NCBI GenBank assembly: GCA_004367505.1
Contig: SFCB01000095.1
Coordinates: 1-64,000, forward strand
Length of the DNA stretch: 64,000 nt
Direction: 5' to 3'
Origin: Chloroflexi bacterium OHK40
GTDB lineage: Bacteria > Chloroflexota > Chloroflexia > Chloroflexales > Chloroflexaceae
Shown here: piece by piece, positions 25,400-43,736 of the stretch
How the letters are laid out: each line of letters begins with the position of its first letter
Numbering within the stretch: position 1 is the first letter of the stretch
The notes under the pieces: generated by a model
Told to the model about the DNA's origin: nothing
The model's input: only the letters and a program-made list of their open reading frames with translations
Databases searched by the model: none
Translations under genes and position numbers: made by a program

Positions 25400-27634
25400 T
25401 CAGACATCGGGTTCCCAGTCGAAGCCAAGCTCCACGGGTGGCTCATCGCGCACTTGCTCGGTCTCACGGCGGTGGAGCAGGGCCGTTTTGACGATCAGGC
25501 GCAGGCGGGCCCAGTTGTCCACCTGTACGGGCACGGGGGTCGGGCGCTCGCCCTTCGCGTAGCGGGCGGCGTTACGGCCGATCTGGCGGTAGCTCTCCAG
25601 CGTCAGGCTGGGCGACTGGGGGAAGAGCTCGAGGTTACTCAGGCGGGGCAGGTCGCGCCGGTGGATGATCGTCGTGCCCCGGGATTGCAGGCCGACAGCC
25701 ACGCCGGATCCGCTTAGCCTGGCGCCCGTATGGCCGATCTCGGCGCAGTCGGAGCTGTGGCGCACACGCACCAGCCGGGCGGTGAGACCCTCCTCGGCCA
25801 CCCCGGTGAGGATGGCGGCCAGCACGTCGTCGTGCTCCAGGCCGCCGATGGTGCGGGTGAGCTCGCGGCCAAAGGCGGGTCCCACCGCGAGGATGACCTC
25901 CGTCTGGCTGCCGCGCCGGGCCGGGCCGAGCTCAATGAGCCTGGGCGAAGGGGCGCCGATCTGCGGGGCGATAAAGTCGCGGGGGGAGCGGGCCGTGCGG
26001 ATGCGCTGCAGCTCCTCCCAGCGCGCGCCAGTGAGCCGGTAGCCGGTGCCGGGGCCGGCGTAATCATTCGGGTCGTTGATCCCACTGCGCACACGGAAAT
26101 CGCGGTCGAAGATCGCGGCGGGCTGCAGGTAATCGCCGGCCACCCGCTGGCGGCCGAGCTCGAGGATGTTGGCGGCGATGCGCTCGAAGCCCCGGCGGCG
26201 CAGAGCCGCCACCACGGCGAGCACCGTCTGCTCGCTAGCCAGGAATGCGTCGGCGGCGGCGAGATCGGCTACCACATCGCGGGAGGGCATGTCGGTCGAG
26301 GCGTGGGCAACCACCGCTGCCTCTACCTCTGCGTCGGAGATCGGCGGCAGGCCGAGCTCGGCGTAGACGGCCTGGATGGCCCGGGCGGCCTCACGGCGGG
26401 TCGCCAGGGCCTCCTCCTCGGATACCGGGCGGGTGCCGCCGTCGATCTGCATATCGCGCTGCAGCACACTGTAGTCGTCGTGGTCCTCGGCATCGAAGTT
26501 CCCCCCGCCGAAGAGATTGTCGGCCTTTGGTACGGCGCTATAGCCCGAGAAGATCAGGTCGGTGCCGGGGATGAACTGCAACATGAGCTTGGCCGACTTG
26601 CGGATGGCCGAGTGCGAGGCGAGGGCATCGTTGCCGGAGGCCACCTCCAGGCCGAGCATGCTGGCGAGCAGGTTCTCGGCGAGCACGGCGCGCACGCCGC
26701 CGGGCAGGGCCTCCGGCAGCGCGATGCAGGAGATGGACCCGTTCTGGACGCCCTGGCTTCCGGCGCCCCTGGTGACACAGAGGCAGCGCGCCTCCAGGTA
26801 GAGCATCGAGCAGCCCTCGGCGTGGGCCATCAGCGCCTCGGAGCCGGTGCCAGAGGTGAAGCGCACCTTGACGCCTCGGGAGGCGTAGGCCGAGGCGAGA
26901 AAGGCCTTCGACCAGGGCGTATCATCGCCGTCCACAAAGGCGCCCTCGGTACCGTACACCGAGAGCGTTTCGGCGTAGGTGGTCAGGCCGAGCATGGCCA
27001 GGCGGAGCCCGAGCGACTCCTCGACCGAACACTGGGTGAGCACCCCGCCACGGCCAGTCTGGGTGCCCACCAGGATGGCCAGCGCATTCAATGGGGCGAA
27101 GCGTGCCACGCCTACCGTCGTCTCCACTTCGGCGAAGCCCCGCAGGCCCGCCTCGGCCGCGTCTGCGGCGAGGAGGGCGGGGTGCTCGCGGCGGTTGGTC
27201 ACGTGGGCCTGGTTGGCGGGGGCGCGGCGCACGCGCATCTTGGCGAGGCCCTGCATCATCTCTAGCACGCTCAGGTGGGCCATGATCGCGCAGAGCTTGG
27301 CGGGCGTACATCCGGCGGCCAGGCGCAGCACCGCCTGCCGGGGCACATTGATATCGACGAGCATCCGCGCGATGTGCAGATCCGGAGTGGCCATCGCCTC
27401 CTCGGCCACCGCCAGATCGAGGGCGTGGTCGGCGATGAAGCTGTCGATCGCGTCGAACTGCGCGCGCGGGCGGCCATCCAGCTCAACCACCTGGCCACCC
27501 TCCATGCGCAGGCTGGGCCGGGGGTCCAGCGGGCTCTCGGCAACGATCAGGCCGGCCTCGGGCCAGGGCTCGACGAAGGTCTCGCGATTGATCTCGCGCG
27601 TGTCGAGCAGCTCATAGCGGCGGGAGCGTGTCAT
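25400..27634 (-). CDS. pduCD: Diol/glycerol dehydratase, large and medium subunits fused
   Basis: A 744-residue protein that joins two subunits normally encoded separately. Residues 1 to about 560 are the catalytic TIM-barrel large subunit, with PANQAHVTNRREHPALLAAD, GRGGVLTQCSVEESLGLRL, KVRFTSGTGSEALMAHAEG and EDHDDYSVLQRDMQIDGG. From about residue 570 the medium subunit follows (VGPAFGRELTRTI, LEHDDVLAAILTGVAEEG, QSRGTTIIHRRDL). The enzyme uses adenosylcobalamin. The ATG at 27634 has GGAGGGG upstream. No reactivating factor (DdrAB/PduGH) and no microcompartment shell gene is in this window. Similar fusions are, as I recall, known in actinobacteria. Confidence 0.93.
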   Translation of the reverse strand: MTRSRRYELLDTREINRETFVEPWPEAGLIVAESPLDPRPSLRMEGGQVVELDGRPRAQFDAIDSFIADHALDLAVAEEAMATPDLHIARMLVDINVPRQAVLRLAAGCTPAKLCAIMAHLSVLEMMQGLAKMRVRRAPANQAHVTNRREHPALLAADAAEAGLRGFAEVETTVGVARFAPLNALAILVGTQTGRGGVLTQCSVEESLGLRLAMLGLTTYAETLSVYGTEGAFVDGDDTPWSKAFLASAYASRGVKVRFTSGTGSEALMAHAEGCSMLYLEARCLCVTRGAGSQGVQNGSISCIALPEALPGGVRAVLAENLLASMLGLEVASGNDALASHSAIRKSAKLMLQFIPGTDLIFSGYSAVPKADNLFGGGNFDAEDHDDYSVLQRDMQIDGGTRPVSEEEALATRREAARAIQAVYAELGLPPISDAEVEAAVVAHASTDMPSRDVVADLAAADAFLASEQTVLAVVAALRRRGFERIAANILELGRQRVAGDYLQPAAIFDRDFRVRSGINDPNDYAGPGTGYRLTGARWEELQRIRTARSPRDFIAPQIGAPSPRLIELGPARRGSQTEVILAVGPAFGRELTRTIGGLEHDDVLAAILTGVAEEGLTARLVRVRHSSDCAEIGHTGARLSGSGVAVGLQSRGTTIIHRRDLPRLSNLELFPQSPSLTLESYRQIGRNAARYAKGERPTPVPVQVDNWARLRLIVKTALLHRRETEQVRDEPPVELGFDWEPDV

Positions 27635-27681
27635 CAAGGCCCCTCCAGGTTCAGCCGTCCGAATCACCACGGGTTCCGTCC

Positions 27682-28305
27682 TTAGCGAACCGCCGCGACA
27701 CAGGCCCGCGCGGTTGACGTAATCGCCGACCAATCGCCGGCGGCCACGGCGCGGGCGGGGATGAGGTTACCGCCGATCCCGAGGGCAGCGGCGCCGGCGG
27801 CCAGGTAATCGCGGGCATTCTCAGCGCTCACGCCACCGGTCGGCACCAGCTTGAGGAAGGGGAGCGGCGCCAGCACATCTTTGAGGTAGGCGGGGCCACC
27901 GAGGCGGGCGGGGAAGAGCTTCACGAGCGCGGCGCCCGCCTCGTGAGCCGCCAGCAACTCGGTCGGGGTGAGGCCGCCGGAGAGCGCCAGGACACGGCGG
28001 TTGACGCAGGCGGCGATCACCGCGGGCCGGAGCGCTGGCGTTACCACAAACTCGGCCCCGCCATCCACCGCCGCGGCAACCTCTTCGGGGTGGAGCACTG
28101 AGCCCACCCCCACGCAGGCGGCATCGCCGAGCGCGGCGCGCACCGCGCCCACGGCGGCTACCGCCCCCTTGCCGGTGAGCGTAAACTCCAGCGCCGTCAC
28201 CCCACCCTCCACGAGCGCCCGGGCCACCTCGACGGCTTTGCTGTACTCATCGAGTCTGACGATCGCCACAATCCTGGTGCTGAGAATATGCTCTTGCGGG
28301 GTCAA
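27682..28305 (-). CDS. eda: KDPG/KHG aldolase
   Basis: A 207-residue class I aldolase of the Entner-Doudoroff pathway, splitting 2-keto-3-deoxy-6-phosphogluconate to pyruvate and glyceraldehyde-3-phosphate. The fold marks are IVAIVRLD, the catalytic Glu region ALEFTLTG, GVGSVLHPEEV, the Schiff-base Lys in ALVKLFPARLGGP and the phosphate loop LVPTGGVS. I start at the TTG at 28305, which has GAGGAG six bases upstream; the extension to 28371 would overlap the promoter -10. It heads the transcript that continues into the diol dehydratase genes, 48 bases later. Confidence 0.9.
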   Translation of the reverse strand: MTPQEHILSTRIVAIVRLDEYSKAVEVARALVEGGVTALEFTLTGKGAVAAVGAVRAALGDAACVGVGSVLHPEEVAAAVDGGAEFVVTPALRPAVIAACVNRRVLALSGGLTPTELLAAHEAGAALVKLFPARLGGPAYLKDVLAPLPFLKLVPTGGVSAENARDYLAAGAAALGIGGNLIPARAVAAGDWSAITSTARACVAAVR

Positions 28306-28957: not shown

Positions 28958-31900
28958 ATGTTACGGCTCCAGCTCTTCGGCCCTCCTGTCGTCCAGCAGG
29001 AGAACGGCTCAGTCACCCAGTTTAAGAGTCGGAAAGTTGAGGCCCTGCTCTACTTCCTGGCTGTAACACCGGGCCAGCATCGTCGCAGCTTCCTGGCCAA
29101 CCTGCTCTGGTCCGAGTGGGCGGAAGAGAAGGCGCTCAGCAATCTGCGCTATGCGCTGTGGAATCTGCGCCAGGTACTCGGGGAAAGCTCCCTGAGCGGC
29201 GATCGGTTGAGTATCACCTTCCAGGACACGGCAATTATCTCGAACGATGTCCGGGAGTTTCGTGAGCAACTCCGGGCGGCCGACGCCCCCGGGGACGCGG
29301 CAGACACGGCCCAGATCGCGCACCTGCAGCGGGCGGTGATGCTCTACCACGGGGAATTTCTGGCGGGCTTCGAGGTAGGCGAGGCGCCGTTCTTTCACGA
29401 CTGGTTGCAGCAGCAGCGGGCCACCCTCCACGAACTGGCCATCACCAGTCTGATCCGCCTCGACGCCTTCTACACCCGCCATCATTACCTGAAGGAGGCT
29501 CTCAGCGCGGCGCGGCGCCTGCTCGATCTTGATCCCTGGCGCGAGGAGTCTCACCGGCAGGTGATGCGGCTGCTGGCGCTGAGCGGGCGCCGTGATGCGG
29601 CCCTTGCCCATTTCCAGCATTGCCGGCAGATCTTGGAGGCGGAGCTGAATCTGGCTCCAGAGCCAGCAACGGTGGCGCTCATGGAGCGCATCCGGGCGGG
29701 CGATCTGGAGCTGGCCCCCGAAGATGGCCCAACGGCAGCCGTAGCTGAGACGAACGCCCTGGCCGTGCAGCTCGTGGGCCGCCACGCCGAGTACGCCTGG
29801 CTGGTGGAGCGTTGGGAGCTGGCCTGTCGTGGCCAGAGTCGCCTGGCCCTGATCTGCGGCGAGGCGGGAGTGGGCAAAACCCGCCTGGTTGAGGAACTGA
29901 GCCGCCTGGTCGTAGCCCAGGGCGGGCTGGTGCTACGGGGGCGTTGCTACGAGTTTTCAGGCCCCGTGCCCTACCAGCCGATCGCCGCCGCGTTGCAGCA
30001 ACAGCTCGTACGCCACACAACGCGCGGCCTCCCGATCAGCGAGGCCTGGCTGGTGGAGCTGGCGCAACTGCTGCCCGAGGTGCGTGAGCAGTACACCAAC
30101 CTCCCGCCCGCGCTCCCCACCGGTCAGAGCACCGACCGCTACCGGCTCTTCGAGGCCGTGGCAACGTTTCTCCAGGCCCTCACTGTGTCCCAGCCTGCAC
30201 TCTTCTTCCTCGACGACCTGCACTGGGCCGATAGCGACACCCTCGATCTGCTAGGCTATCTGCTGCGCCGGCTCACGGCCAGCCCGCTGCTGGTGGTCGG
30301 CGCCTATCGCCCGGGCGAGGTCTTGAACGGACACGCACTGGTAGCGCTGGACCGGCCTCTGCTCTACGATGGCCTGAACGAGGAGCTTGCGTTGGCCCCG
30401 CTCTCGCGCGAGTCGGTGCAGGAGTTGGCCCAGAGTATCACGCTGGTGGCCGACAGCGACAGGCTGGCCGGCTTCCTGTATCAGTTGAGCGAGGGCAACC
30501 CCTTTATCCTCTTCGAGGCGCTGAACGAGATGCAGGAGCGTGGCTGGCTGGAGCCCACTGCCGCAGGGCACTGGGCGCTGAAGACCGCCGTCCTCGATCA
30601 GGAGGAGCTGATCCCCACGGAGGTGCAGGCGCGGATCAGGCGGCGGGTGGCGCGACTCACCCCGGAGAGCCGCAGCCTGCTCGCCCTGGCTGCCGTCATC
30701 GGCCGGCCCTTTGAGGCCCGGCTGCTTCAGGCAGCGAGCAGGGCCGATCCGGAGTGGGTGCTCAGCTGTCTGGACGACTGGCTGGCCCGCCATTTGATCA
30801 AGGAGGTTGCCTGCCCCGAGCAGCTTAGCACGCGGGCCGAGGGCACGACCATGCGTGAGGAGTGTCATTACGACTTCAGCCACGACCTCATTCGCGCCGT
30901 CGTTTATGCCGACCTGAGCGCGGCCCGCCGGCAGATCCTGCACACCCAACTGGGCGATGCGCTGGAGCGCGTGTATGCCCGCCAGCTCGACAAGGTGGTC
31001 GAGTGGTTGGCTCATCACTATCACTACGGCTACCGACCACAGAAAGCCCTGCACTACCTTCAGCTGGCTGGCCAGCAGGCCCAGACGGTCTATGCCTTAC
31101 CTCTGGCGCTGGAGCGCTACCAGCGTGCCCTCAGCTACTGGGAGCGCGTCTACAGCCTCACCGACAGCGATCTGCCTACCGAGGCCTGGCGCCAGCGCTG
31201 GCGGCTGCTGCTGAGCCAGGCCGAGGTGAACCGCATGCTCGGCCAGCTCCAGACACAGCAGCCCTCTCTGGAGACCATCCTTCACGAGGTGAACCACTGG
31301 GGCGACGATCAGGATCGGCTCCAGGTGATCGAGCAGCAGCTCGCCCGGCTTGAGCAGACCGCCGATCTGGATCAGCGGCGCCAGCTGGCCAGGGAGGGGC
31401 TGCGGCTCGCCCGCCTGCTGGGCCAGCCGCTGGCGGAGGGCAACTTCCTCCAGGCGCTCGCCGACTGCGAGCGCGACATGGCTAACTTTGAGCAGGCCCT
31501 GAGCCACTATGAGGCCGCGCTGCGGAACTTCTCGCGCCTGGAGCAGACGCGCCTCGCCGCCTTTTGCCTGATCAGCATGGGGAACATCCACCTGTTGCAC
31601 AATCGCTACACCCAGGCGATGACTCACTTCAGCCAGGCGAAGGCCTATGCCGAGGCCCGGGGCTACCAGGATGCCCTGATCTGGTCATACAACGCCATGG
31701 CCCAGCTCTACCTGTTCATCGGCGGGCTTGAAGAGGCAGCCCAGCTCAGCCAGCAGGCCCTGAGGCTCTGCGAGCTCATCGGCTTCGACTCCGGCGCCTC
31801 GACGGGGCTGGTGATTCAAGGCTATCTGAACCTCCTGGAGGACCGGCTCGACCAGGCTCAGGCCCTGCTGGAGCGCGCCTGGGAGATCAATCAGGAGATG

Positions 31901-33027: not shown

Positions 33028-33969
33028 CTATGGCAGCGCCTGCGCAAAGACGAGCCGCTCGCTACGGGGGGTAAAGCCGAGGCGCCGGTTGATCGTGTGC
33101 ATGGCCAGGGTGCGGCGATCATTTTCGGCGATCAGGAGGGTGATGCCGTGGCCCTGTGCATGGGCAAGCAGCTTCTGCTTGAGTGCGGTTGCCAGTCGCC
33201 GCCCACGGAAGTCGGGGTCGACCCCCAGATAGATGCTCGCAAGGCACGTGTCGCTGAGCCGGGCGCTCAGGGCCAGCGCGACCAGCTGACCGCCAGGCGT
33301 GACGATCACAAATGAGTGCGGTAAAGAGACCGCCTCGGGCTCTAACATCTCCTGCTCCAGGCGCCGGGCGTGGTATGGCCGATAGGGCCAGTGCTGCGGC
33401 TGATCGGGCCGCGTACGGTTCCAGAGCGGCAACAGGCGCTCGGCCAGACGGTGGCGGGGGAAGCGATCCAGGGTGGCGAAACGCAGCCCCTGGGCGGTGA
33501 GGAGCGCATCCGGGTCGCCCCAGTCGGTCCGGGCGCTGGTGGCTAGATTGAGCTGGTAGGTGATCATGCCGCCGATCTCCTGAAAGCCCTGGCGCCCCAG
33601 GAAGCTCCGGCCGGCCTGCTGCTCACATCCGGCCCCAGCCAGCAGGCGTCGGGCGCCACGACGGCGCAGATACTGTACCAGGCGCACGTACCCCTGCGTG
33701 CCGATCCCGTGTCGCCGATACTCGGGCAGCACGAACATGTCGAACAGCCACAGCTCTGGATCGGTCTCGGCCATGCGTAATGCCGCCCATCCGACCGATC
33801 GGCCCGCGAGCTCCAACGCAAATAGCGCGCCAGGGATGGCGTTAATGGGTGGATTCCAGGCGTACATCATGAAATCCGGCAGATATGGTGTCGTCTGCTC
33901 GGCATAAACTACCTCGAAAACACGAGACACCTCTGCCATTCCGAGCGATCGAAGAGTAATGTTTGACAT
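33028..33969 (-). CDS. Tandem GNAT-family N-acetyltransferase
   Basis: A 313-residue protein with two GNAT domains. The first, about residues 1-150, has the acetyl-CoA loop VLPEYRRHGIGTQGYVRL. The second, about 165-313, has VDPDFRGRRLATALKQKLLA and the C-terminal NRRLGFTPR. Double GNAT proteins often acylate amines or antibiotics, with one domain sometimes inactive; here both loops look intact. The substrate cannot be inferred. Its start codon overlaps the -35 of the strong divergent promoter of the next gene. Confidence 0.88.
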   Translation of the reverse strand: MSNITLRSLGMAEVSRVFEVVYAEQTTPYLPDFMMYAWNPPINAIPGALFALELAGRSVGWAALRMAETDPELWLFDMFVLPEYRRHGIGTQGYVRLVQYLRRRGARRLLAGAGCEQQAGRSFLGRQGFQEIGGMITYQLNLATSARTDWGDPDALLTAQGLRFATLDRFPRHRLAERLLPLWNRTRPDQPQHWPYRPYHARRLEQEMLEPEAVSLPHSFVIVTPGGQLVALALSARLSDTCLASIYLGVDPDFRGRRLATALKQKLLAHAQGHGITLLIAENDRRTLAMHTINRRLGFTPRSERLVFAQALP

Positions 33970-33991
33970 TAGATGCTGATTATTGTATAAT
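33963..33991 (+). promoter_or_regulatory. Perfect consensus sigma-70 promoter
   Basis: TTGACA (33963-33968), a 17-base spacer and TATAAT (33986-33991) match the housekeeping consensus at all twelve positions. It drives the CpXC-type gene starting at 34032. The -35 overlaps the start codon of the divergent acetyltransferase gene, so strong firing here could interfere with that gene. Confidence 0.85.
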
Positions 33992-34031
33992 GAGCCACCG
34001 GTACCAGCAGATAAAGCGAGGAGATTCTGCG

Positions 34032-35159
34032 ATGGCGAGCCACCAGAATGGGTCCGTTCAGTGTCCGCATTGCAAAGCTGAGAACATTTCTGCTGTGCGA
34101 CAGCTTATTGCCGCACATGACCTCGACGTAAAGGCTGCATTTGTCCAGGGGAAACTCAATCTGGTGCGCTGCTCGCACTGTAAGGCAGTCTTTTCACCCG
34201 ACGTCGCAACACTTTATTATGATCTGGAGCAAGGCCACGCCTTTGTCTATGTTCCTGCCGGCCCAACTGCTCCTGGCGAGCGCCCCGCCACCAGGGTGCG
34301 TGATCTCACCGACGCCCTCCGACGCAGCCTGGCGCCGGAGCAGTGGAGGTCCAACCTGGCGCGTCCGCAGCGCTTCAGTTCCCCCGGTGATCTGGCGCAG
34401 GCCATCCTCAAAGCGGACGGCATCACCCCCGAGCTACTGCAGGTGCAGGCCGCACGGGCGGAACTACTTGCGGCGTTGCTGCAAGCGCCCAGCGAGGAGG
34501 AGCTGCGAACGCTCGCCCGGGCCCACGATGCCGAACTCGACGGCCCCTTCTTCGAACTGCTCACGGCCCAGATGCACGCGGCGCACATGGCTGGCGACGC
34601 GCAGCGTGCCCAGACCCTCCTGACCCTCCGTACCTACCTGGGCCGCCACAGCTCCCGGGGGCAGGAGGTGATCGCCGCCATCGACGCCAGACTTGGCCTC
34701 AACGGCATCCAGAGCCGCGAGGAGTTGCTCACGCATCTGCGCCAGGCCAGGGACGGGGCCGAGCGGGCGGCCCTGGTTGCCCAGGGCTCCATGCTCCTGG
34801 ATGCGCGCTTCTTTCAGCTCCTCGACGCTGCGGCCGAGCAGGCGGCCAGGGACGGTGATGCCGCTGCGGCCGCAGTGCTGCAACAGTTGCGGATCGAGCT
34901 CCCGGCTCTGAAGGCGGCCAGCGAGGCGCAGGTACGCGCGGCCCTGGAGCGCGCGGCGGCCCTCGTTACCCAGGTAGTCAGCGCGCCGCATCCCGACCGG
35001 GTGCTGGCGGAAAACCGTGCCGGGCTCGACGAGGCCTTCTTCGTGGTGCTGGGCGCCACGATCGAGCGAGCCCGGCGCCAGGGCGCCCAAGAGCCTCTGC
35101 GCGCCCTGGAGCTGATCGGCCAACTAGCCAGGACCATCGGCGCGGAGGGAGACGGGTAG
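34032..35159 (+). CDS. CpXC-type zinc-ribbon protein with long helical tail
   Basis: A 375-residue protein. Residues 1-80 are a CpXC-like domain: CPHCKAENISA and, about 38 residues later, RCSHCKAVF, two CXXC pairs that would bind one zinc. From about residue 90 to the end the protein is Ala/Leu/Glu-rich and strongly helical, with four similar segments (for example PFFELLTAQMHAA, RFFQLLDAAAEQA and AFFVVLGATIERA), so it may be built of repeats. The start follows GAGGAG. Function unknown. It is convergent with the groEL of the monooxygenase operon, 44 bases apart. Confidence 0.75.
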   Translation: MASHQNGSVQCPHCKAENISAVRQLIAAHDLDVKAAFVQGKLNLVRCSHCKAVFSPDVATLYYDLEQGHAFVYVPAGPTAPGERPATRVRDLTDALRRSLAPEQWRSNLARPQRFSSPGDLAQAILKADGITPELLQVQAARAELLAALLQAPSEEELRTLARAHDAELDGPFFELLTAQMHAAHMAGDAQRAQTLLTLRTYLGRHSSRGQEVIAAIDARLGLNGIQSREELLTHLRQARDGAERAALVAQGSMLLDARFFQLLDAAAEQAARDGDAAAAAVLQQLRIELPALKAASEAQVRAALERAAALVTQVVSAPHPDRVLAENRAGLDEAFFVVLGATIERARRQGAQEPLRALELIGQLARTIGAEGDG

Positions 35160-35203: not shown

Positions 35204-36853
35204 CTAATACGCCGCTTCCGTTAGTCCGAGCTTCTCCGCGCCGCCGCCCCGCGTCGGACCTGCGGTGGGATCCTCTTCCTCGGGCTTGTCGGCGACCAGG
35301 GCCTGGGTGGTGAGAATGAGCCCGGCCACTGCTCCCGCATTTTGCAGCGCCGTGTAAGCGACCTTCACCGGGTCGATGATCCCCGCGGCGACCATATCCA
35401 CCAGTTCGCCCGTCCACGCATTGAATCCCACCCCGCGCGGCGAGGCGGCAACACGGGCGACAATACTCTCAGGGTGCTCGACCCCACAGTTCTCGGCGAT
35501 GCAGCGCAGGGGCTCACTGAGGGCCCGCTGGACCACCAGAGCGCCTTCTTTCTCGCCGCCGGAGAGGGAGGCGATCAGAGGCTCCAGGGCTGCGGCGCAT
35601 TGCACGTAGGCCGTGCCGCCACCAGGTACCACGCCCTCAGCCACGGCGGCGCGGGTGGCGTTGATCGCGTCGGTGATCAGCTGGTCGCGGCGCTTCTGCT
35701 CGGTGGGCGTTACACCACCGACCCGGATCACGGCGATACCCCCGGCGAGCTTGGCCTGGCGCATCTCCAGCTTATCGCGGTCCACCAGAGCCTCCGTCGC
35801 CTCCAGTTGGCGCAACACCTGGGCCTGGCGGCCGCGGATCTGGGCCGCATTGCCGCCGCCACCGGTGATCACGGTCTGCTCGGGGGTCACCTGCACCTCC
35901 TGGGCTGTGCCGAGGTCGGCGAGTTGGAGCTGCTCCACCCTGGCCCCCAGTTCGCGTGAAAGCACCCGTCCGCCGGTGACGACGGCGATATCCTCCAGCA
36001 TGGCTTGACGCCACTTGCCGTACTCGGGCGGATGCACGGCGGCCAGGCGCGGCCCGGAAGCCGAGAGCGCGAGCAGGGTGGCGAGGGCGTCAGGGGAGAT
36101 GTCCTCGGCGATGATCAGCAGCGGGCGCCCCTCAGCAGCGGCCAGGCTGTGGATGCTACGGATCTCGTGGGGACTCTGGATGCGCTGGTCGGTGAGGAGG
36201 ATGAGCGGGTTCTTGAGGATCACCTCCATGGTCTCCACATCGGTGACCATGTGGTGCGAGAGGTAGCTGCGGTCGAAGGAGAAGCCCTCCACCAGGTCGA
36301 GGGTGGTCTCGGTGCTCTGCCCGTAGTCGACGGTGATGATCCCGGCCGGGCCAACCTTGCGCACCGCCCTGGCTACCAGACGCCCGAGGGTGGCGTCGTT
36401 CGCGGCGATGCGAGCGACGGCAGCCGTGGCCTCGTCGTCCTTGAGGGGTTGGGCGGTGTTCTTCAGCGTCTTGATCACCAGGGCGATCGCCTGGTGCATC
36501 CCTTCGACCACATCGATGGGGCTGGCCCTCTGCTTGACGACGGCGAACCCCTGCTGCACCAGAGCGTTGGCCAGCACCATGGCGGTGGTAGTGCCGTCGC
36601 CAGCGACCTCGTTGGTCTTCATCGAGACCTCACGGGCCACCTGCGCGCCGATGTTCTCAAAGCGGTCCTCGAGCTCGATCTCCTGCACGATGCTCACGCC
36701 GTCGCGCGTGACGATGGGGGTGCCGAGCGGTGTGTCGATGATCGTATTTCCGCCCTTGGGGCCAAGGGTGCCCTGGATGGTCCTGGTAAGCTTCTCAACG
36801 CCCCGGCCCAGGGCTGCCCGCGCCTCTGCCTGGAAGAGCATCAGTTTTGGCAT
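35204..36853 (-). CDS. groEL: GroEL-type chaperonin of the diiron monooxygenase operon
   Basis: A 549-residue HSP60. The ATPase motifs are present: GTLGPKGGNTII, TRDGVSIVQEIELED and EVAGDGTTTAMVLANAL with the catalytic Asp. It is clearly diverged from housekeeping GroEL, for example SIVQEI where IAKEI is usual, and the C-terminus ends in GGGAEKLGLTEAAY with no GGM-repeat tail. No groES is adjacent. Operon-encoded GroEL paralogues (PrmG, MimG, MmoG) are needed to fold the hydroxylase of soluble diiron monooxygenases, and the position as fifth gene after prmABCD fits that role. AAGGAA precedes the start. Confidence 0.92.
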   Translation of the reverse strand: MPKLMLFQAEARAALGRGVEKLTRTIQGTLGPKGGNTIIDTPLGTPIVTRDGVSIVQEIELEDRFENIGAQVAREVSMKTNEVAGDGTTTAMVLANALVQQGFAVVKQRASPIDVVEGMHQAIALVIKTLKNTAQPLKDDEATAAVARIAANDATLGRLVARAVRKVGPAGIITVDYGQSTETTLDLVEGFSFDRSYLSHHMVTDVETMEVILKNPLILLTDQRIQSPHEIRSIHSLAAAEGRPLLIIAEDISPDALATLLALSASGPRLAAVHPPEYGKWRQAMLEDIAVVTGGRVLSRELGARVEQLQLADLGTAQEVQVTPEQTVITGGGGNAAQIRGRQAQVLRQLEATEALVDRDKLEMRQAKLAGGIAVIRVGGVTPTEQKRRDQLITDAINATRAAVAEGVVPGGGTAYVQCAAALEPLIASLSGGEKEGALVVQRALSEPLRCIAENCGVEHPESIVARVAASPRGVGFNAWTGELVDMVAAGIIDPVKVAYTALQNAGAVAGLILTTQALVADKPEEEDPTAGPTRGGGAEKLGLTEAAY

Positions 36854-36943: not shown

Positions 36944-37279
36944 CTACAAATACTCGCGGGTGCCCTCGAAGTCGGCGTAGAGCACCACCGCGTTGTCCTC
37001 GATCAGCATGCGCCCGTAGTGGGTCGACATCTCGATCTGGAAGATGTATGGGTCCATTTCGCGGCCAAGGGCCTCGGAGAGCTCGTCCATATCGAAGACG
37101 AGCATACCCTTGCCATCGATGCGGATCATGGCCGGGTAGTAGGTGACGGTCACGTTGGGCTTGCGCTCCATAATCTTGGCGACGAGGCGGCCCTCGACGC
37201 TATCGTTCATGGTGACGCCGCACATGTCGGTGATCGTGTCCTCGAACACGAGATCCTTAAAGGTGGTGACAGAGCTCAC
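36944..37279 (-). CDS. prmD: Monooxygenase coupling (effector) protein
   Basis: A 111-residue member of the MmoB/DmpM family, the cofactor-free protein that binds the hydroxylase and tunes electron transfer and substrate gating. It reads SVTTFKDLVFEDTITDM at the start and later VTYYPAMIRIDGKGMLVF, with MDELSEALGREMDPYIFQIE near the end. I start at the GTG at 37279, which overlaps the stop of the upstream beta-subunit gene (GTGA) and has AAGGAGG eight bases upstream. A long hairpin separates it from groEL. Confidence 0.92.
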   Translation of the reverse strand: MSSVTTFKDLVFEDTITDMCGVTMNDSVEGRLVAKIMERKPNVTVTYYPAMIRIDGKGMLVFDMDELSEALGREMDPYIFQIEMSTHYGRMLIEDNAVVLYADFEGTREYL

Positions 37280-38340
37280 AGCTGGGCCTCCTTCGGCAGG
37301 GCAACGTCGATCTGCGCGAGCGTGTTGCTGATGCGGTGCTTGGCGCGTTCGTAGGCATCGACGAACTTCACCCGCTTCACCTGTGTCTGTGACCAGATCG
37401 GCTGGAGTTGCCTGGCCGCCGCCACGCAGAGGGGCACATAGGTGACGAGCCAGCCCTGCATCACCGCCTGGTTGTGGGCACCGTAGGTGGGGTCGTGGGC
37501 GAAAATGTGGAACATCTCGATCGCGTTGGCCAGATTGCGCTCGTAGTCGCCCTCGCCGGTGGCCACAATGGCCGGGGTGACGAAGTCGCCGTGCATGGCC
37601 CCGCACTGCATCACAAAGCCGCTGCGGAACAACTCGGTGACGAGGGCCTCGTAGACGACGTTGATGGCGAAATATTGCTCCAGGTGGTCGGATGCCCCGC
37701 CGATGGTCTCGATCGCCCGGCGCGCTCCCTGCCAGATCGGGTCGTTGAGCCAGTGGTCTTTGCCGGCCCCCTCATCCAGTGCGCCATCGAGATCCAGGCT
37801 CACCTCAGCCAGATAGAGCAGCAGATCCTGGGCGAAGCGCAGCTTGTAGGAGGAGTTGGTGAGGATGGAGTTGTTGATCATCTGGGTCATGCCGTCGCGC
37901 TGGGCGACCAGCAGGATCCCGCCGAGGCCGTGCTCCGGGTGCTTCAGGGCACCGACGTGGTCCTGAAGAATCTTCACCCAACCGGTCTCGTAGTTGCGGG
38001 CTGCACCCTGGGCACGGGCGCTGGTGGTGATGATCTTGATCGTCTCCTCGATCTCGCTCTGGCGGGCAAAGTGGTTGCGCTCGTGCTCTTCGTCCGGGGC
38101 GCGGTACTCGTGCCAGTTTGAGCTCTTGATCGCCGTCAGCGCCTTGTTGTAGGCAGGGGCGCCGTTGGCAAACGAGATGATCCAATCCTGGATCAGGTAG
38201 CGCTCCGGGTCGGGCTGTACATCGACCGTCACGTCCTCGTAGAGCGTCGCCTTGCGCCCCTTGGGCGTGTAGTAGTTGTACTGCCGGCTATCCCAGCCAA
38301 CAAATATGGCCGAACCGGCTGCTCCCGATTGCTTCTCCAT
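37276..38340 (-). CDS. prmC: Diiron monooxygenase hydroxylase, small (beta) subunit
   Basis: A 354-residue ferritin-like protein without metal ligands, the beta subunit of the (alpha-beta)2 hydroxylase. Typical segments are YNYYTPKGRKATLYEDVTVD at the start, RNHFARQSEIEETIKI, and a late MHGDFVTPAIVATGEGDYER. The start has AAGGAA ten bases upstream. It overlaps the coupling-protein gene by four bases, so stoichiometric expression is likely. Confidence 0.94.
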   Translation of the reverse strand: MEKQSGAAGSAIFVGWDSRQYNYYTPKGRKATLYEDVTVDVQPDPERYLIQDWIISFANGAPAYNKALTAIKSSNWHEYRAPDEEHERNHFARQSEIEETIKIITTSARAQGAARNYETGWVKILQDHVGALKHPEHGLGGILLVAQRDGMTQMINNSILTNSSYKLRFAQDLLLYLAEVSLDLDGALDEGAGKDHWLNDPIWQGARRAIETIGGASDHLEQYFAINVVYEALVTELFRSGFVMQCGAMHGDFVTPAIVATGEGDYERNLANAIEMFHIFAHDPTYGAHNQAVMQGWLVTYVPLCVAAARQLQPIWSQTQVKRVKFVDAYERAKHRISNTLAQIDVALPKEAQL

Positions 38341-38479: not shown

Positions 38480-39526
38480 TCAACGCACGGCCTGGGTGAA
38501 GCGATCAACATGGATACGCTCCGGCCGGACCCGGTTGCGCTCGAGCACCGGGAGGGTGGCGTCGATCATCGGGGGCGGGCCACAGAGATAGGCCTCGACC
38601 TCCCCGGTCTGCATGCCCTCCTCGAAGTAGCGCCCTAACACCTCGTGGATGTAACCCTGCTCGCCCTCCCAGGGGGCGCCTGGCTCAAGCTGGGAAAGGG
38701 CTGGCACAAAGCGGATGTTGGGGCGCTGCGCCTGGATGGCGGCGAGCTGGTCGAGGTAGAACAGGTCACGCTCGGTGCGTGCGCCGTAGAAGAAGATCAC
38801 CGGGCGACGCCGGTCGCCATGCTCAAGATGATCGGCAAGAATAGACCAGAGCGGTGCCATGCCGGAGCCACCACCCACCAGGATCATCAGCCCGCCGGCA
38901 TCGTCGCGGCGGAAGCAGGTGCCGTAGGGGCCGGTGAGTGTCAGGGGGTCGCCGGGCCTGAGCCGATCGCGCAGCAGCGAGGAGAAGGCTCCGTCGGGGT
39001 ATACCTTGATGATAAACTCCAACGCCCGTTGCTCGCTGGGCGGGTTGGCCATGGAGAATGACCGCGTTATGCCCTGGCCGGGGATGCTGATGTCAACATA
39101 CTGCCCGGCGCGAAAGCGAAGTGGCTGCTCCACCAGCACCGTGAGTCGCCGGATGTCGTGGGTCAACGGCTCGATCGCGCTGATCCGAGCACTGTAGTCC
39201 TTCACAGGGAGTGAGTTGAGCAGCAGATCTTCGTCGTAGTTCAGCAGCTCCACCACCAGATCGCTATAGGCCTGGGTGCGGCAGAGCAGCACATAGTCCT
39301 GCGTGCGCTCATAGTCGGGCAGGGCGAAGGTGGAGTACTTCAGGAGCTCGATGTCGCCTTCCAAGAGGATCGACTTGCAGCTGGAGCACTGCCCCTCCTT
39401 ACAGCCGTGCATCAGCATGATGCCCTGGCGGAAGGCGGCGCTGAGGACCAACTCGCCCTCTTCGACCTCCATCTCAACCCCAACCGGCTCAAAGCGAACG
39501 GTGTAGGTCTTTTTTCCTGCAGCCAT
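38480..39526 (-). CDS. prmB: Monooxygenase reductase (2Fe-2S, FAD, NADH)
   Basis: A 348-residue electron-transfer protein. An N-terminal plant-type ferredoxin domain has Cys42, Cys47 and Cys50 in HGCKEGQCSSCK plus Cys82 in LLCRTQ. The flavin domain follows with RFRAGQYVDISIPG and TRSFSMANPPSE, then the NAD-binding domain with LVGGGSGMAPLWSIL and the C-terminal YLCGPPPMIDA. It carries electrons from NADH to the diiron hydroxylase. It is separated from prmA by 105 bases containing a perfect 12-bp hairpin. Confidence 0.95.
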   Translation of the reverse strand: MAAGKKTYTVRFEPVGVEMEVEEGELVLSAAFRQGIMLMHGCKEGQCSSCKSILLEGDIELLKYSTFALPDYERTQDYVLLCRTQAYSDLVVELLNYDEDLLLNSLPVKDYSARISAIEPLTHDIRRLTVLVEQPLRFRAGQYVDISIPGQGITRSFSMANPPSEQRALEFIIKVYPDGAFSSLLRDRLRPGDPLTLTGPYGTCFRRDDAGGLMILVGGGSGMAPLWSILADHLEHGDRRRPVIFFYGARTERDLFYLDQLAAIQAQRPNIRFVPALSQLEPGAPWEGEQGYIHEVLGRYFEEGMQTGEVEAYLCGPPPMIDATLPVLERNRVRPERIHVDRFTQAVR

Positions 39527-39631: not shown

Positions 39632-41293
39632 CTAGATCCGCTTGATCGTGAAGCCCTTTTTGTACTCCGCGATGTGCTTCTCGCGGGCCTCGGGGGTCAT
39701 GGCTCGCAGATCGAGCAGCGGGCTGCGCAGCTCGAAGCCCCTCACATGCTCCAGCTTCCACATCTTGCTGTCGTCCATGTGCAGGTGGGGCTGCGGAATC
39801 AGGGTCTTGCCGTCGCTGCGAACGAAGCCCAGATCTTTGATGCAGTCAGCCAGATCCCAGCCGTGGTAGATCGTCTCCCACTGGCGCTTGCCGCTGAAGC
39901 GACCCATGGCCGGGGTGGGGCGACCCTCGTACTCGGCGGCGAAGGCGTACTTGTGAGTCCAGCGGCAGAGATCGGAGCAGTAGGTGTAGAGCTCACCATC
40001 CACGGTATCGACGACAAAGTCCTCGCGGATGAGACAGGGAACCATGCAGCTCCAGCAGCGGTGCGGGTAGACATAGCCGGTGTCGACCCAGAGGCTGGGC
40101 GGGTTGTTGGGCAGGCTGAGGTCGCGGTAGTTCTCCCAGTAGGCGCCGAACTTGGCGTACCAGCCCGGGTACTTGGCCTCGAACCACTCAAAATCGGCCT
40201 CGGTCATGCCATCGATGCGCCAGAAGTTCACTGGCCAGCCTGCTGAGAAGAACTGGGCCGTGTAGTGAACATAATCCTTCTTGACGATCCGGTCCCAGGC
40301 CGCCTCGACATCGTCGTGGTGGATCTTGATGCCGTACTTCTCAAGCGGCAGCATGTAGCTGCGGTAGTAGTCGTTGTAGATCCAGCGGTGCCACAGCTCC
40401 GCGTAGGACTCCTTGCCCTTGTCGCGGTTCTTGGTGCCGTACTCAACGAAGGTGCCGATGGCGGCATCGACAATGGCGTGGTTCTGCCAGAATGCGTAGC
40501 GCAGGTCGCGCTCCAGCAGCAAGTGGTTATCGGGGTTGTCCAGGATGGACATGAGGATGGCGTGGCCGTTGCCGATGTGCCGCGACTCATCCGACTGCAC
40601 CGAGAGGAAGACCGTCGGCAGTGCGTAGTCGCCGTTGCGGGCGGCCTCGGAGGGCATGGCCACGAAGAGGGTGTTGGTGTAGGCCGTCTCGGCCACTACC
40701 GTGAGGTAGATGTTGGCGGCGGTGATCGCGTCGCCGGTGATAAAGCCCTCGGCGAACTGTCGGCCGATGGTGGTGGCGTAGCACTTGCCGAAGGCCATCT
40801 CGGTGATGTCGAAGCCCGTCGGGTCGACGTAGTTCTCCATGTACCACTTCTTGAGATTCATCTGAATCGTGGAGTGGCGGAGCTCGTCGATCATCTGGGT
40901 AGCGAAGCCGGTCTGCAGATTGTCGCCCGGCACGACATGGCTGAGCATGGCCATCGAGCGAGCCGCCGAGATCTCGGGGAAGGGGATGATGGCGAGGAAG
41001 AGTTTCATCCACTCGATCCAGCGCGGCTCGACGTTGCGGAACATGTCGCCACGGAGACCGGCGTCCAGGGCTCCGAAGACGCGGTTGTCCTTCTCGTCTT
41101 GCATCGGGAAGTAGGAGCGCAGCACCTGCCGCATCGGATCCTTGGGGATCTTGTTGAGGACGTAGTCGGTGGGGTACTTCACCAGCGCCTGTACGTACGT
41201 GGGAGTCCAGCCGAGATCGCCAATCCGGCGCGAGGCCTCAGCGTTGCTGATCTTCTTCTGCTTGGTGATCTTGGACAGTGTGGTTGCCGCCAT
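39632..41293 (-). CDS. prmA: Diiron monooxygenase hydroxylase, large (alpha) subunit, propane type
   Basis: A 553-residue catalytic subunit that inserts oxygen into a hydrocarbon at a diiron centre. All six ligands are present: Glu107 (FPEISAAR), Glu137 and His140 (DELRH), Glu202 (AETAYTN), Glu236 and His239 (SDESRH). Each is exactly seven residues lower than its MmoX equivalent (114, 144, 147, 209, 243, 246). The MmoX Cys151 position is Gln144 and Thr213 is Thr206. Gene order prmA-prmB-prmC-prmD-groEL and overall resemblance point to group 5/6 enzymes (propane, other short alkanes, ketones or cyclic ethers) rather than methane monooxygenase. AAGGAGG precedes the ATG. Confidence 0.94.
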   Translation of the reverse strand: MAATTLSKITKQKKISNAEASRRIGDLGWTPTYVQALVKYPTDYVLNKIPKDPMRQVLRSYFPMQDEKDNRVFGALDAGLRGDMFRNVEPRWIEWMKLFLAIIPFPEISAARSMAMLSHVVPGDNLQTGFATQMIDELRHSTIQMNLKKWYMENYVDPTGFDITEMAFGKCYATTIGRQFAEGFITGDAITAANIYLTVVAETAYTNTLFVAMPSEAARNGDYALPTVFLSVQSDESRHIGNGHAILMSILDNPDNHLLLERDLRYAFWQNHAIVDAAIGTFVEYGTKNRDKGKESYAELWHRWIYNDYYRSYMLPLEKYGIKIHHDDVEAAWDRIVKKDYVHYTAQFFSAGWPVNFWRIDGMTEADFEWFEAKYPGWYAKFGAYWENYRDLSLPNNPPSLWVDTGYVYPHRCWSCMVPCLIREDFVVDTVDGELYTYCSDLCRWTHKYAFAAEYEGRPTPAMGRFSGKRQWETIYHGWDLADCIKDLGFVRSDGKTLIPQPHLHMDDSKMWKLEHVRGFELRSPLLDLRAMTPEAREKHIAEYKKGFTIKRI

Positions 41294-41515
41294 GGTAACA
41301 CTCCTCCTTGAGGTTCGCTGTGCTGTCACCCATTCCAGCCAGAGCGGCCTCCTGCCTGCTCCAGGGCATCGGCCACCGACCTGAGGACTGCGATCCATCC
41401 AGCTTCTGGTGTATACGTCTGGTGAGCTCCTTTCCGGCGTGCATTCGTACGGAGGCTGTTGCTCCATCGCCCCGCAGGGTTGGCACAGCGTTCTCTCAGG
41501 CACAATGCGCCTGGA

Positions 41516-41541
41516 CCGCGCTGCCGCTCGCGGCAGCGCGG
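41516..41541 (-). other. Perfect 12-bp hairpin in the prm leader
   Basis: CCGCGCTGCCGC and GCGGCAGCGCGG are perfect inverted repeats two bases apart, about 30 bases into the predicted leader and over 220 bases before prmA. There is no T-run. A role in leader stability or attenuation is possible. Apart from this and the promoter, I see no gene in the 415-base gap 41294-41709. Confidence 0.7.
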
Positions 41542-41574
41542 CTTGGCGTATCAACTGCGGGCGTGAATGGTTGG

Positions 41575-41607
41575 AGTATAGCGGGCTAGCGTTTGTGGAG
41601 CGTTTGT
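41575..41607 (-). promoter_or_regulatory. Predicted prm promoter with 11-bp-spaced direct repeats
   Basis: On the minus strand two identical 9-mers, ACAAACGCT (41607-41599 and 41596-41588), are spaced 11 bases apart. They are followed seven bases later by TATACT (41580-41575). No consensus -35 is present. Direct repeats at one-helical-turn spacing that replace the -35 and end about 8 bases from the -10 are the known target layout of SARP activators. Confidence 0.6.
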
Positions 41608-41629
41608 CGGACGGGGAGTCCTGGAGGAG

Positions 41630-41653
41630 TCTGGGGGGCGCTTGCCGCCCGGG
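41630..41653 (-). terminator. Possible terminator-like hairpin after kdgK
   Basis: A short GC-rich inverted repeat (GGGCG and CGCCC around a CTTGC loop) lies about 60 bases after the kdgK stop. There is no U-run, so termination is uncertain. It separates the sugar-acid operon from the prm promoter. Confidence 0.3.
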
Positions 41654-41709
41654 AGTTCAGGCGACAGGTGGCACACGACCGAGATCTTGCTGGAGGGCGA
41701 GCACGCTGA

Positions 41710-42672
41710 TTAGCGCGCTACGTCCCCACCTTCCTGGGCGAGCACGGCCTCCAGTTCGGCGCGCGTCGTGAGTACGCGGTCGCCGTGTTGGGAGAGCGCG
41801 ATCGCGGCCAGGGCCACGCCCCGGCGCAGGCCCTCCAGCGGGTCGCCATCGAGGAGCCCATCAAGGACCCCGGCGGCAAATGCATCGCCGCTGCCGATCC
41901 GGTCCACGATCTGCACGGGGAGGGCGGGCTGCTCGTGAAAGGTGTCGCCCGCGAGCAGGGCCGCGCCGCGCTCGCCGAAGGTGCAGTAGATCGCCCGGGC
42001 GCCGCTGAGTGCCCGGAGCCCGGCCATTTGCTCGCCGGCCCCCCCCGCGCAGCCGAAGAGCAGGCTGGCATCGGCGCCCTTGCAGAAGAGGACATCGGCC
42101 TGGGCGATGAGTGGTCGGAGCCGCTCGCCGGCCTCGGCGGCGCCCCAGAGCCGGGCACGGAAGTTGACGTCGAAGCTCACGACGACCCTGGCGGCGCGGG
42201 CCCGGCGCATCGCCTCGGCCACCACGTTGTAGCAGCCCGCGCCCAGCGCCGCAGTGATGCCCGTCAGGTGCAGGATGCGCGTGTCGAGCAGGTAATCCCA
42301 ATCCACATCGCCGGGCGTCATGCGGGCCGCCGCCGAGTCCGCCCGGTCGTAGATCACCTGGGAGGCGCGTGGGGCACTGGCGAGTTCGATGAAGTAGGTC
42401 CCGATCCGCTCGCCGGGTACCGCGCGTACGGCCGTCACGTCAACGCCGTCTGCCCGCAGGGTGCGCAGCACGGCGCGGCCCAGGGCATTGTCGGGCAGGC
42501 GGCTCACCCAGCCGGTGCGGCGTCCGAGCCGGCTGAGGGCGGTGACGACGTTGCTCTCGGCGCCGCCGATCTCAATGTCGAGCGTGCGAGCCTCGTCGAG
42601 GCGGCGACCAACCGGCACACTGAGGCGCAGCATCGTCTCGCCGAGGGTGGTCACATCGAAGTGGGCGCTCAC
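41710..42672 (-). CDS. kdgK: 2-keto-3-deoxygluconate kinase
   Basis: A 320-residue PfkB-family kinase. It has the N-terminal IGGAESNVVTALSRLG signature, the KDG-kinase-type substrate segment GTYFIELASAPRASQVIYDR and the catalytic IGSGDAFAAGVLDG motif. It phosphorylates 2-keto-3-deoxygluconate to KDPG, which the aldolase at 27682-28305 can split. I start at the GTG at 42672, which overlaps the upstream lactonase stop (GTGA); a GTG nine bases earlier is also in frame. It is the last gene of the minus-strand sugar-acid operon. Confidence 0.88.
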   Translation of the reverse strand: MSAHFDVTTLGETMLRLSVPVGRRLDEARTLDIEIGGAESNVVTALSRLGRRTGWVSRLPDNALGRAVLRTLRADGVDVTAVRAVPGERIGTYFIELASAPRASQVIYDRADSAAARMTPGDVDWDYLLDTRILHLTGITAALGAGCYNVVAEAMRRARAARVVVSFDVNFRARLWGAAEAGERLRPLIAQADVLFCKGADASLLFGCAGGAGEQMAGLRALSGARAIYCTFGERGAALLAGDTFHEQPALPVQIVDRIGSGDAFAAGVLDGLLDGDPLEGLRRGVALAAIALSQHGDRVLTTRAELEAVLAQEGGDVAR

Positions 42673-43736
42673 GGGTGCCACCCCATCGGGCCAGTGGGGA
42701 AGATCACGCAGGCGGCGCCCGGCAGCGCCGCGTGGGCAACGGGCTCGCCCAGGGCCGTGGCTCCGCCGAGCACGGGCAGCACGGCGAGTTGGCCGCTGTG
42801 CTGGTTCGCCACCACGAGGAAGCGGCCGTCGGGACTGAGGGCGAAATTGCGCGGCCAGTCGCCGCCGCAGGGCCGAATGGCGAGTGGGCTCAGGGCACCG
42901 CCAGGACCCACGGCGAAGACGGCGATGCTGTTGTGGCCACGGTTGGAGACGTAGAGGCGCGATCCGGCGGCATCAAGGTGAAGATCGGCCACCTGGTTGT
43001 GCGGAGCCCCGGGCGGGAGGGTGCTCAGGTAGCCGAACTCGGTGAGTCTGCCGGTGGCCGGGTCGAAGGTGAAGCTGCTCACCGTGCTGTCGAGCTCGTT
43101 GGCGACGTAGAGCAGGCGCCCACTCGGGTGCCAGGCCATATGCCGTGGCCCGGCTCCGGAGTGCACCGCTGCCTCGCCGTGGGGCAGCAGCGCGGCGCCT
43201 GCCGCATCCACCTGGTAGACCATCAGCCGGTCGATGCCCAGGTCGGCCACGATCGCGAACCGGCCATCGGGCGAGAAGATGGTCGCGTGGGCGTGTGGCG
43301 CCTCCTGGCGCTCGGGGTGCGGCCCCGAGCCCTGGTGGCGCACCACGGGCCCGGGTGCGCCGAGGCCCCCATCGGGCATGCGCGGGATCAGGCGGGCGCT
43401 GCCCGAACCATAGTTCGCCACGGCGATCAGGGTGGCCGCCGGGTTGAGGGCGAGGTGGCAGGGCCAGTCACCGCCGCCAGGCTGGCGGCCGAGCTCGGTA
43501 GCCTGGCCGGGCGCTGGCCCGAGGCGCAGGGCCACCACCACGCCGTCACCCGTCTCGCTCGCAACGTAGAGCTCACCCGCCGGACCGGCGACGAGGAAGG
43601 AGGGGCTGGCGATCCCGGCCAGGGCACCGTGAGGGGTGAGCGCACCTGTCGCGCTATCCATCAGAAAGCCGTGGATGCCGGGCTGATCGGCTTCGGTGTA
43701 GCCGCTCGCCAGGAGCAGCTGTGGCGGGGGTGTCAT
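42669..43736 (-). CDS. Lactonase family beta-propeller protein (6-phosphogluconolactonase-like)
   Basis: A 355-residue seven-bladed propeller. Blade repeats are obvious: PSFLVAGPAGELYVASE, RFAIVADLGIDRLMVYQVD, RLLYVANELDSTVSSFTFD, SRLYVSNRGHNSIAVFAV and RFLVVANQHSGQLAVLPV. The HAHATIFSPDGR and RNFALSPDGR segments match the YbhE/Pgl lactonase family. In this operon it would open the sugar lactone formed by the dehydrogenases, giving the aldonate for the dehydratase. No signal peptide is present, so it is cytoplasmic. Confidence 0.88.
   Translation of the reverse strand: MTPPPQLLLASGYTEADQPGIHGFLMDSATGALTPHGALAGIASPSFLVAGPAGELYVASETGDGVVVALRLGPAPGQATELGRQPGGGDWPCHLALNPAATLIAVANYGSGSARLIPRMPDGGLGAPGPVVRHQGSGPHPERQEAPHAHATIFSPDGRFAIVADLGIDRLMVYQVDAAGAALLPHGEAAVHSGAGPRHMAWHPSGRLLYVANELDSTVSSFTFDPATGRLTEFGYLSTLPPGAPHNQVADLHLDAAGSRLYVSNRGHNSIAVFAVGPGGALSPLAIRPCGGDWPRNFALSPDGRFLVVANQHSGQLAVLPVLGGATALGEPVAHAALPGAACVIFPTGPMGWHP

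Follow-up and report, generated by a model that had tools for sequence, protein, structure and literature searches.

Regulators of the SARP type have been known chiefly for switching on antibiotic gene clusters in Actinobacteria. AfsR of Streptomyces coelicolor combines a SARP part (wHTH-BTAD) with a STAND ATPase and TPRs, and at afsS it binds the afs box, two 11-bp direct repeats that span -40 to -19 and lie over the -35 position (PMC10936776; PDB 8HVR, 8JKE, 8K60). ActII-ORF4, DnrI, PimR and other cluster-situated SARPs use heptamer repeats with 4-nt spacers over or near the -35 position, and each is encoded within the Streptomyces antibiotic cluster that it controls (PMC10972967, PMC5930380). 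For alkane monooxygenases, a review of their control lists LuxR/MalT, AraC, TetR, GntR, LysR, sigma-54 and Fis regulators, SARPs not being among them, and describes AlkS, a large LuxR/MalT-family activator of alkB (PMC8784404). In our literature search we found no paper on SARP promoters in Chloroflexota.

We have analysed a stretch of 64,000 nucleotides from Chloroflexi bacterium OHK40 (the window; its genome is G000) and conclude that a SARP very probably activates a propane monooxygenase-type operon there in the fashion of AfsR. More specifically, we put at roughly 0.8 the probability that a 33-bp element upstream of prmA is an activator-dependent promoter of prmABCD-cpn60, bound in the AfsR manner by the SARP encoded in the same conserved gene block, with the ATPase and TPR parts of that protein gating its activity. 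This reading is built on sequence, geometry, conservation, synteny, co-occurrence and domain content, from which we infer binding, activation, the start site and the inducer. The features concerned are collected in Table 1.

The element, which runs on the minus strand from 41607 to 41575, reads ACAAACGCT CC ACAAACGCT AGCCCGC TATACT. A sequence-only reading of the window had described two perfect 9-bp direct repeats with an 11-bp period and no -35 element, followed by TATACT at a SARP-type spacing of about 8 bases; the repeats are as described, and TATACT lies 7 nt past the second 9-mer, which is 9 nt past the second heptamer. The layout is thus ACAAACG-4-ACAAACG-9-TATACT. SARP promoters are recognised by at least two heptamers with an 11-bp period over the -35 position, as found here, and by a distance of about 8-10 nt between the 3' heptamer and the -10 element. 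We found no sigma-70 -35/-10 pair within 41200-41900 and no -35 box at the repeats. If TATACT occupies -12 to -7, the prm transcript would start at about 41568 and the heptamers would lie at -39 to -33 and -28 to -22, in a geometry that agrees with that of the afs box to about 1 bp (PMC10936776). Forty Markov-shuffled 64-kb windows gave on average 0.1 occurrences of a 7-mer repeated at period 11 before a good -10 element, and none of the 9-mer version; the real window holds one such layout, that upstream of prmA alone. Across the 6.9-Mb genome the repeat pair has no second match with up to two mismatches and one match with three.

The start of prmA is most likely the ATG at 41293, with the Shine-Dalgarno sequence AAGGAGGAG, and not the TTG at 41554 of the mechanical ORF; TATACT lies 282 nt from this probable ATG. 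The predicted 275-nt leader is long, which is a point against the proposed promoter. The leader matched no Rfam family, and we found in it no riboswitch or other known RNA. We note that at 41516-41541 on the minus strand it contains a strong G+C-rich hairpin sequence, CCGCGCTGCCGC-GAGC-GGCAGCGCGG, which is poorly kept in the second genome described below.

Table 1. Features of the prm locus in the window and of two recurring promoter boxes beside other BTAD genes (positions in the window unless a locus is given; G028 is ZM16-3)
Feature	Position	Strand	Comment
SARP-type activator, 1155 aa	28958..32425	+	Full-length orthologue, 78%, in G028
GNAT acetyltransferase, conserved cassette member	33028..33969	-	Fixed in block of both genomes
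CpXC zinc-ribbon protein, conserved cassette member	33963..35159	+	Fixed in block of both genomes
cpn60-type chaperonin of monooxygenase	35204..36853	-	89% in G028
prmD, coupling protein, probable GTG start 37279	36944..37279	-	Named by position and reading frame; conserved in G028
prmC, hydroxylase small subunit	37276..38340	-	88% in G028
prmB, reductase (Fer2-FAD-NAD)	38480..39526	-	84% in G028
prmA, hydroxylase large subunit (Phenol_Hydrox)	39632..41293	-	97% identical in G028
Predicted prm mRNA 5' leader, about 275 nt	41294..41568	-	Placed from the -10 position
-10 element TATACT	41575..41580	-	Exact in G028; within best-conserved 33-nt intergenic window
Half-site 2, downstream heptamer ACAAACG	41590..41596	-	CAAACG kept in G028
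Half-site 1, upstream heptamer ACAAACG	41601..41607	-	Perfect 9-bp repeat spans 41599-41607; ACAAACGCT identical in G028
ACCGAAA box	L132:4839-4871 (G028:C106), L205, L206		Three genomes
GAGGACG-TTTT-GAGGACG-9-TACAAT-like box	L117:3351-3383 (G000:C65), L213-L224		Many Chloroflexales; several in some genomes (four in G036)

The operon has the composition of a propane monooxygenase-type SDIMO operon, with large and small hydroxylase subunits, a reductase, a coupling protein (by position) and cpn60. Among 61 genomes (OHK40 and its relatives) prmA is present in two, that of OHK40 and that of Chloroflexales bacterium ZM16-3 (G028; RYFE02000041), a member of the same family and another genus. In both, the order SARP - GNAT - CpXC - cpn60 - prmD - C - B - A is syntenic, and the shared stretch is bounded by the SARP start and prmA. 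The SARP orthologue and prmA are both present in these two genomes and both absent from 59 of the 61; a full-length orthologue of the regulator was found in ZM16-3 alone, and the best matches elsewhere reach no more than about 42% identity, mostly over part of the length. The other prmA-bearing genomes tested lack a regulator orthologue, and at other prmA loci this SARP is not adjacent to prmA. That only two genomes carry the SARP-prm block is a second point against our reading. The earlier statement that the prm cluster contains no other regulator holds, by domain search and synteny, for the conserved block, to which we confine it. The G+C content of the block is only slightly lowered (64.9 vs 67%), and we saw no convincing terminal repeats that would point to its horizontal transfer. 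Just outside the block, a single reading frame at 25400-27733 combines the large and medium subunit domains of diol dehydratase and lies beside a KDPG-type aldolase gene. We also note that three metagenome bins titled Klebsiella pneumoniae (L014, L015, L051) carry a prmA 77-80% identical to that of the window; these titles are probably wrong.

The regulator gene had been delimited correctly, with its ATG at 28958. Its product consists of a predicted N-terminal wHTH (about 1-95), a BTAD (97-246; PF03704, 1e-22, 81 bits, cut-off 22.1), an AAA_16/STAND ATPase (271-447; AAA_16 2.5e-29) and MalT-like TPRs (about 830-1091; TPR_12, TPR_MalT), so that the SARP part is followed by the domains typical of the large, AfsR type. 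The nearest solved structure is AfsR itself (E 1.3e-9, aligned over residues 3-252 or 3-259, wHTH region and BTAD); a Pfam search of residues 1-121 returned no wHTH family, and the wHTH call is based on this alignment. In the alignment the DNA-backbone contacts S46, W74, R87 and R94 of AfsR and its sigma contact E76 are retained, and the base contacts T88 and R92 are replaced by Y and N (roles of the AfsR residues from PMC10936776). The heptamer is therefore not derivable from known recognition rules, and the two replacements would be in line with a different heptamer, the afsS box being of the CGTT(T/C)A type (PMC10972967) as against ACAAACG at prm. The recognition-helix region, KALxNLRYALWNLRQVLGE, is identical in ZM16-3 but for one position just before NLRYALWNLRQVLGE.

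We envisage that the SARP-AAA-TPR protein would bind both heptamers as a side-by-side dimer, covering about -39 to -22 at the -35 site, and that the bound dimer would keep RNA polymerase and sigma region 4 in place over TATACT, in the way described for AfsR at the afsS promoter. A signal, plausibly the alkane or its alcohol, would probably act through the ATPase and TPR parts to gate activation. While AfsR has a global role, the prm SARP apparently has a single dedicated target, which is a catabolic operon in Chloroflexota. It resembles ActII-ORF4, DnrI and PimR in being encoded within its own cluster, although its candidate target is an alkane monooxygenase and not an antibiotic cluster. BmoR (sigma-54) and the Fis-family regulators of actinobacterial prm are likewise encoded beside the operons that they are thought to control, but they differ from the prm SARP in protein family and promoter type. 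With AlkS it shares the size and MalT-type character of a regulator for an alkane monooxygenase, having an ATPase and MalT-like TPRs; AlkS, however, has a LuxR-type DNA-binding domain and an inverted repeat, whereas the prm SARP has an N-terminal domain of the SARP type and direct repeats.

The sequence-only reading had staked itself on the repeats being kept in close relatives, and in ZM16-3 the half-sites, their spacing and the -10 element are exact in a second genus. There the prm leader carries ACAAACGCT GG GCAAACG GAAGCCAAC TATACT: the 18 bases of the two CAAACG blocks and TATACT match those of the window without exception, as do the spacings, and the differences are confined to the stretches between the motif blocks. 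The 33-nt element is identical at 26 of 33 positions, the highest value for any 33-nt window between the pfkB stop and prmA (background 50%); the leader as a whole is only about 50% identical, with its length preserved (287 nt from TATACT to the prmA ATG in ZM16-3). An exact CAAACG-N5-CAAACG occurs once in the 6.9 Mb of OHK40 and once in the 6.3 Mb of ZM16-3, each time before prmA. When 400 Chloroflexota genomes were scanned, the full pattern was exact in just these two and had two one-mismatch matches, both in a third genome (G360). At all 79 other prmA loci the upstream sequence contains neither a CAAACG pair nor any perfect repeat of a 7-mer accompanied by a -10 element. Besides the exact sites, one-mismatch CAAACG pairs number 18 in OHK40 and 11 in ZM16-3, about as many as matches to a reversed control pattern (12 and 14), and we discarded them as candidates for further targets of the block's SARP.

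PhoB/OmpR-type wHTH regulators also use 7-4-7 repeats in place of a -35 element, as in the E. coli pho box. The earlier identification of the layout as that of a SARP target is right in so far as the geometry fits the afs box, but layout alone is no proof, since PhoB-type response regulators bind similar repeats. The main rival to a SARP promoter is that a response regulator of the PhoB/OmpR family, with its gene elsewhere in the genome, uses the repeats as its box, the adjoining SARP regulating something else or nothing. In favour of this rival, the repeat layout is common to both wHTH families. We nevertheless regard this rival as unlikely: a global regulator should have many boxes, yet the exact pair and the full pattern occur once per genome; no response regulator is present in the conserved block; and the co-occurrence of the SARP with prm is strict. 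Both the number of boxes, one per genome, and the linkage of SARP and prm count against a PhoB-type protein.

The same geometry is found beside other BTAD genes. We scanned for it in a sample drawn around BTAD genes and with thresholds made stricter following a more permissive initial scan, so that the counts are indicative and not a formal test. Perfect 7-4-7 repeats followed at exactly 9 nt by a good -10 element occurred three times in 212 kb surrounding the other BTAD genes of OHK40 and ZM16-3 and not at all in 581 kb of other sequence from the same genomes, and when gaps of 3-16 were scanned in the BTAD set there were matches at gaps 9 and 10 only; 1.5 Mb of mostly proteobacterial loci gave two gap-9 matches. 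Two of the three boxes are conserved, as was seen after the scan, and both have the 9-nt gap and heptamers unlike that of prm. ACCGAAA-4-ACCGAAA-9-TATACT is exact in three genomes of one genus (G028, G032, G020), where a small BTAD gene flanks it on one side and a subtilase gene on the other. A GAGGACG pair with a TACNAT-like -10 element, between a SARP-AAA-TPR gene and a lipoprotein-like gene, recurs at at least nine loci in two families, and these boxes probably form a BTAD regulon of their own. The third box (L124) lies downstream of a BTAD gene. These recurring pairs of regulator and neighbour, with one geometry and different heptamers, give strong support to the view that the 7-4-7-9 layout belongs to BTAD regulators in Chloroflexales. 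A possible self-regulated SARP promoter is seen at L114:3604-3636 (G000:C131), where a pair of TCTGAA repeats with period 11, together with TATACT, precedes the first conserved residues of a SARP gene by about 70 nt.

With 21 BTAD matches in OHK40 and 7 in ZM16-3, the SARP of the block is the obvious protein to bind the prm element, though there are other candidates. It seems to us very unlikely that the element is bound instead by one of the genome's other BTAD regulators, of which there are roughly 20: outside the cassette no paralogue exceeds about 42% identity or is tied to prm, and the two other recurring boxes each adjoin their own BTAD gene and carry other heptamers. The conservation of the site in ZM16-3, the SARP-prm linkage, the afs-box geometry and the similar promoters beside BTAD genes all support the original suggestion that this SARP may control alkane oxidation.

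That suggestion was coupled to a contrast with operons under sigma-54 control, which stands in part. Sigma-54 control is not proven for actinobacterial prm: a gene for a Fis-family regulator is found in Rhodococcus and Mycobacterium, and for Rhodococcus BCP1 the proposed promoter at the mapped start has sigma-70-like hexamers (PMC4428276). Sulfobacillus and many Proteobacteria do show sigma-54 signatures. Sulfobacillus (L008) and a Bacillota locus (L009) have a GAF-sigma54 activator-Fis protein, with TGGCACTAAGTTTGC about 98 nt ahead of the match start at L008, and about 30 proteobacterial prm loci have TGGCA(C/T)-N5-TTGC sites, mostly together with GAFTGA proteins. Within Chloroflexota, a genome from another family (G401) encodes next to prmA a protein of the GAF-Fis type whose sigma-54 domain is partial. 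RpoN is present in both OHK40 and ZM16-3; the best match to TGGCAC-N5-TTGC in the window's leader (7/10) lies far upstream, the weak matches in ZM16-3 (8/10) are not conserved, and no GAFTGA activator was found at the ZM16-3 locus or among the window's block genes searched by Pfam. Control by sigma-54 would thus be available through RpoN, yet no conserved element is seen at prm, and we rejected it on these weak, unconserved matches. Two loci elsewhere are also of note: a LuxR-type large ATPase regulator (AAA_16 and GerE; L105:6990-9779, G269:C206) is encoded next to the gene for the large subunit of a distant di-iron monooxygenase (about 36% identical to prmA) and in divergent orientation to it, and a GAF-histidine kinase gene (L101:5448-8096, G288:C845) is divergent from a prmA homologue (68%) whose match contains one in-frame TAG.

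Least probable of all is that the repeats arose by chance and that transcription of prm begins at a promoter nearer to the gene or at a sigma-54 promoter, or reads through from pfkB, for although pfkB (41710-42681) lies upstream in the same direction as prmA, and although RpoN is encoded and Sulfobacillus and many proteobacterial homologous operons have -24/-12 elements or GAF-sigma54 activators, the element is the most conserved intergenic stretch, the two leaders share no conserved -24/-12 element, neither a sigma-70 pair nor, at the ZM16-3 locus, a GAFTGA protein was found, and in ZM16-3 the sequence upstream of the prm region is unrelated to the window, its nearest long ORF pointing away from prmA.

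Activation of prm by the block's SARP, the reading that we prefer, would mean that a SARP module appears to drive a hydrocarbon-oxidising (propane) enzyme in another phylum, Chloroflexota, in place of the usual controllers. The promoter itself is a possible new biosensor part for gaseous alkanes. More tentatively, and at a little short of even odds, prm and its private SARP may be a self-contained cassette of sensor and enzyme, with a STAND-type SARP taking the place of the usual sigma-54 or Fis-type sensor of alkane or alcohol, and every BTAD regulator of Chloroflexales may recognise a heptamer of its own within a 7-4-7-9-TAYANT promoter of fixed layout before the neighbouring gene. If this is true, pairs of regulator and target would be readable from sequence across the phylum, and the recurring geometry suggests a simple rule by which targets could be assigned to many uncharacterised BTAD regulators of Chloroflexota.
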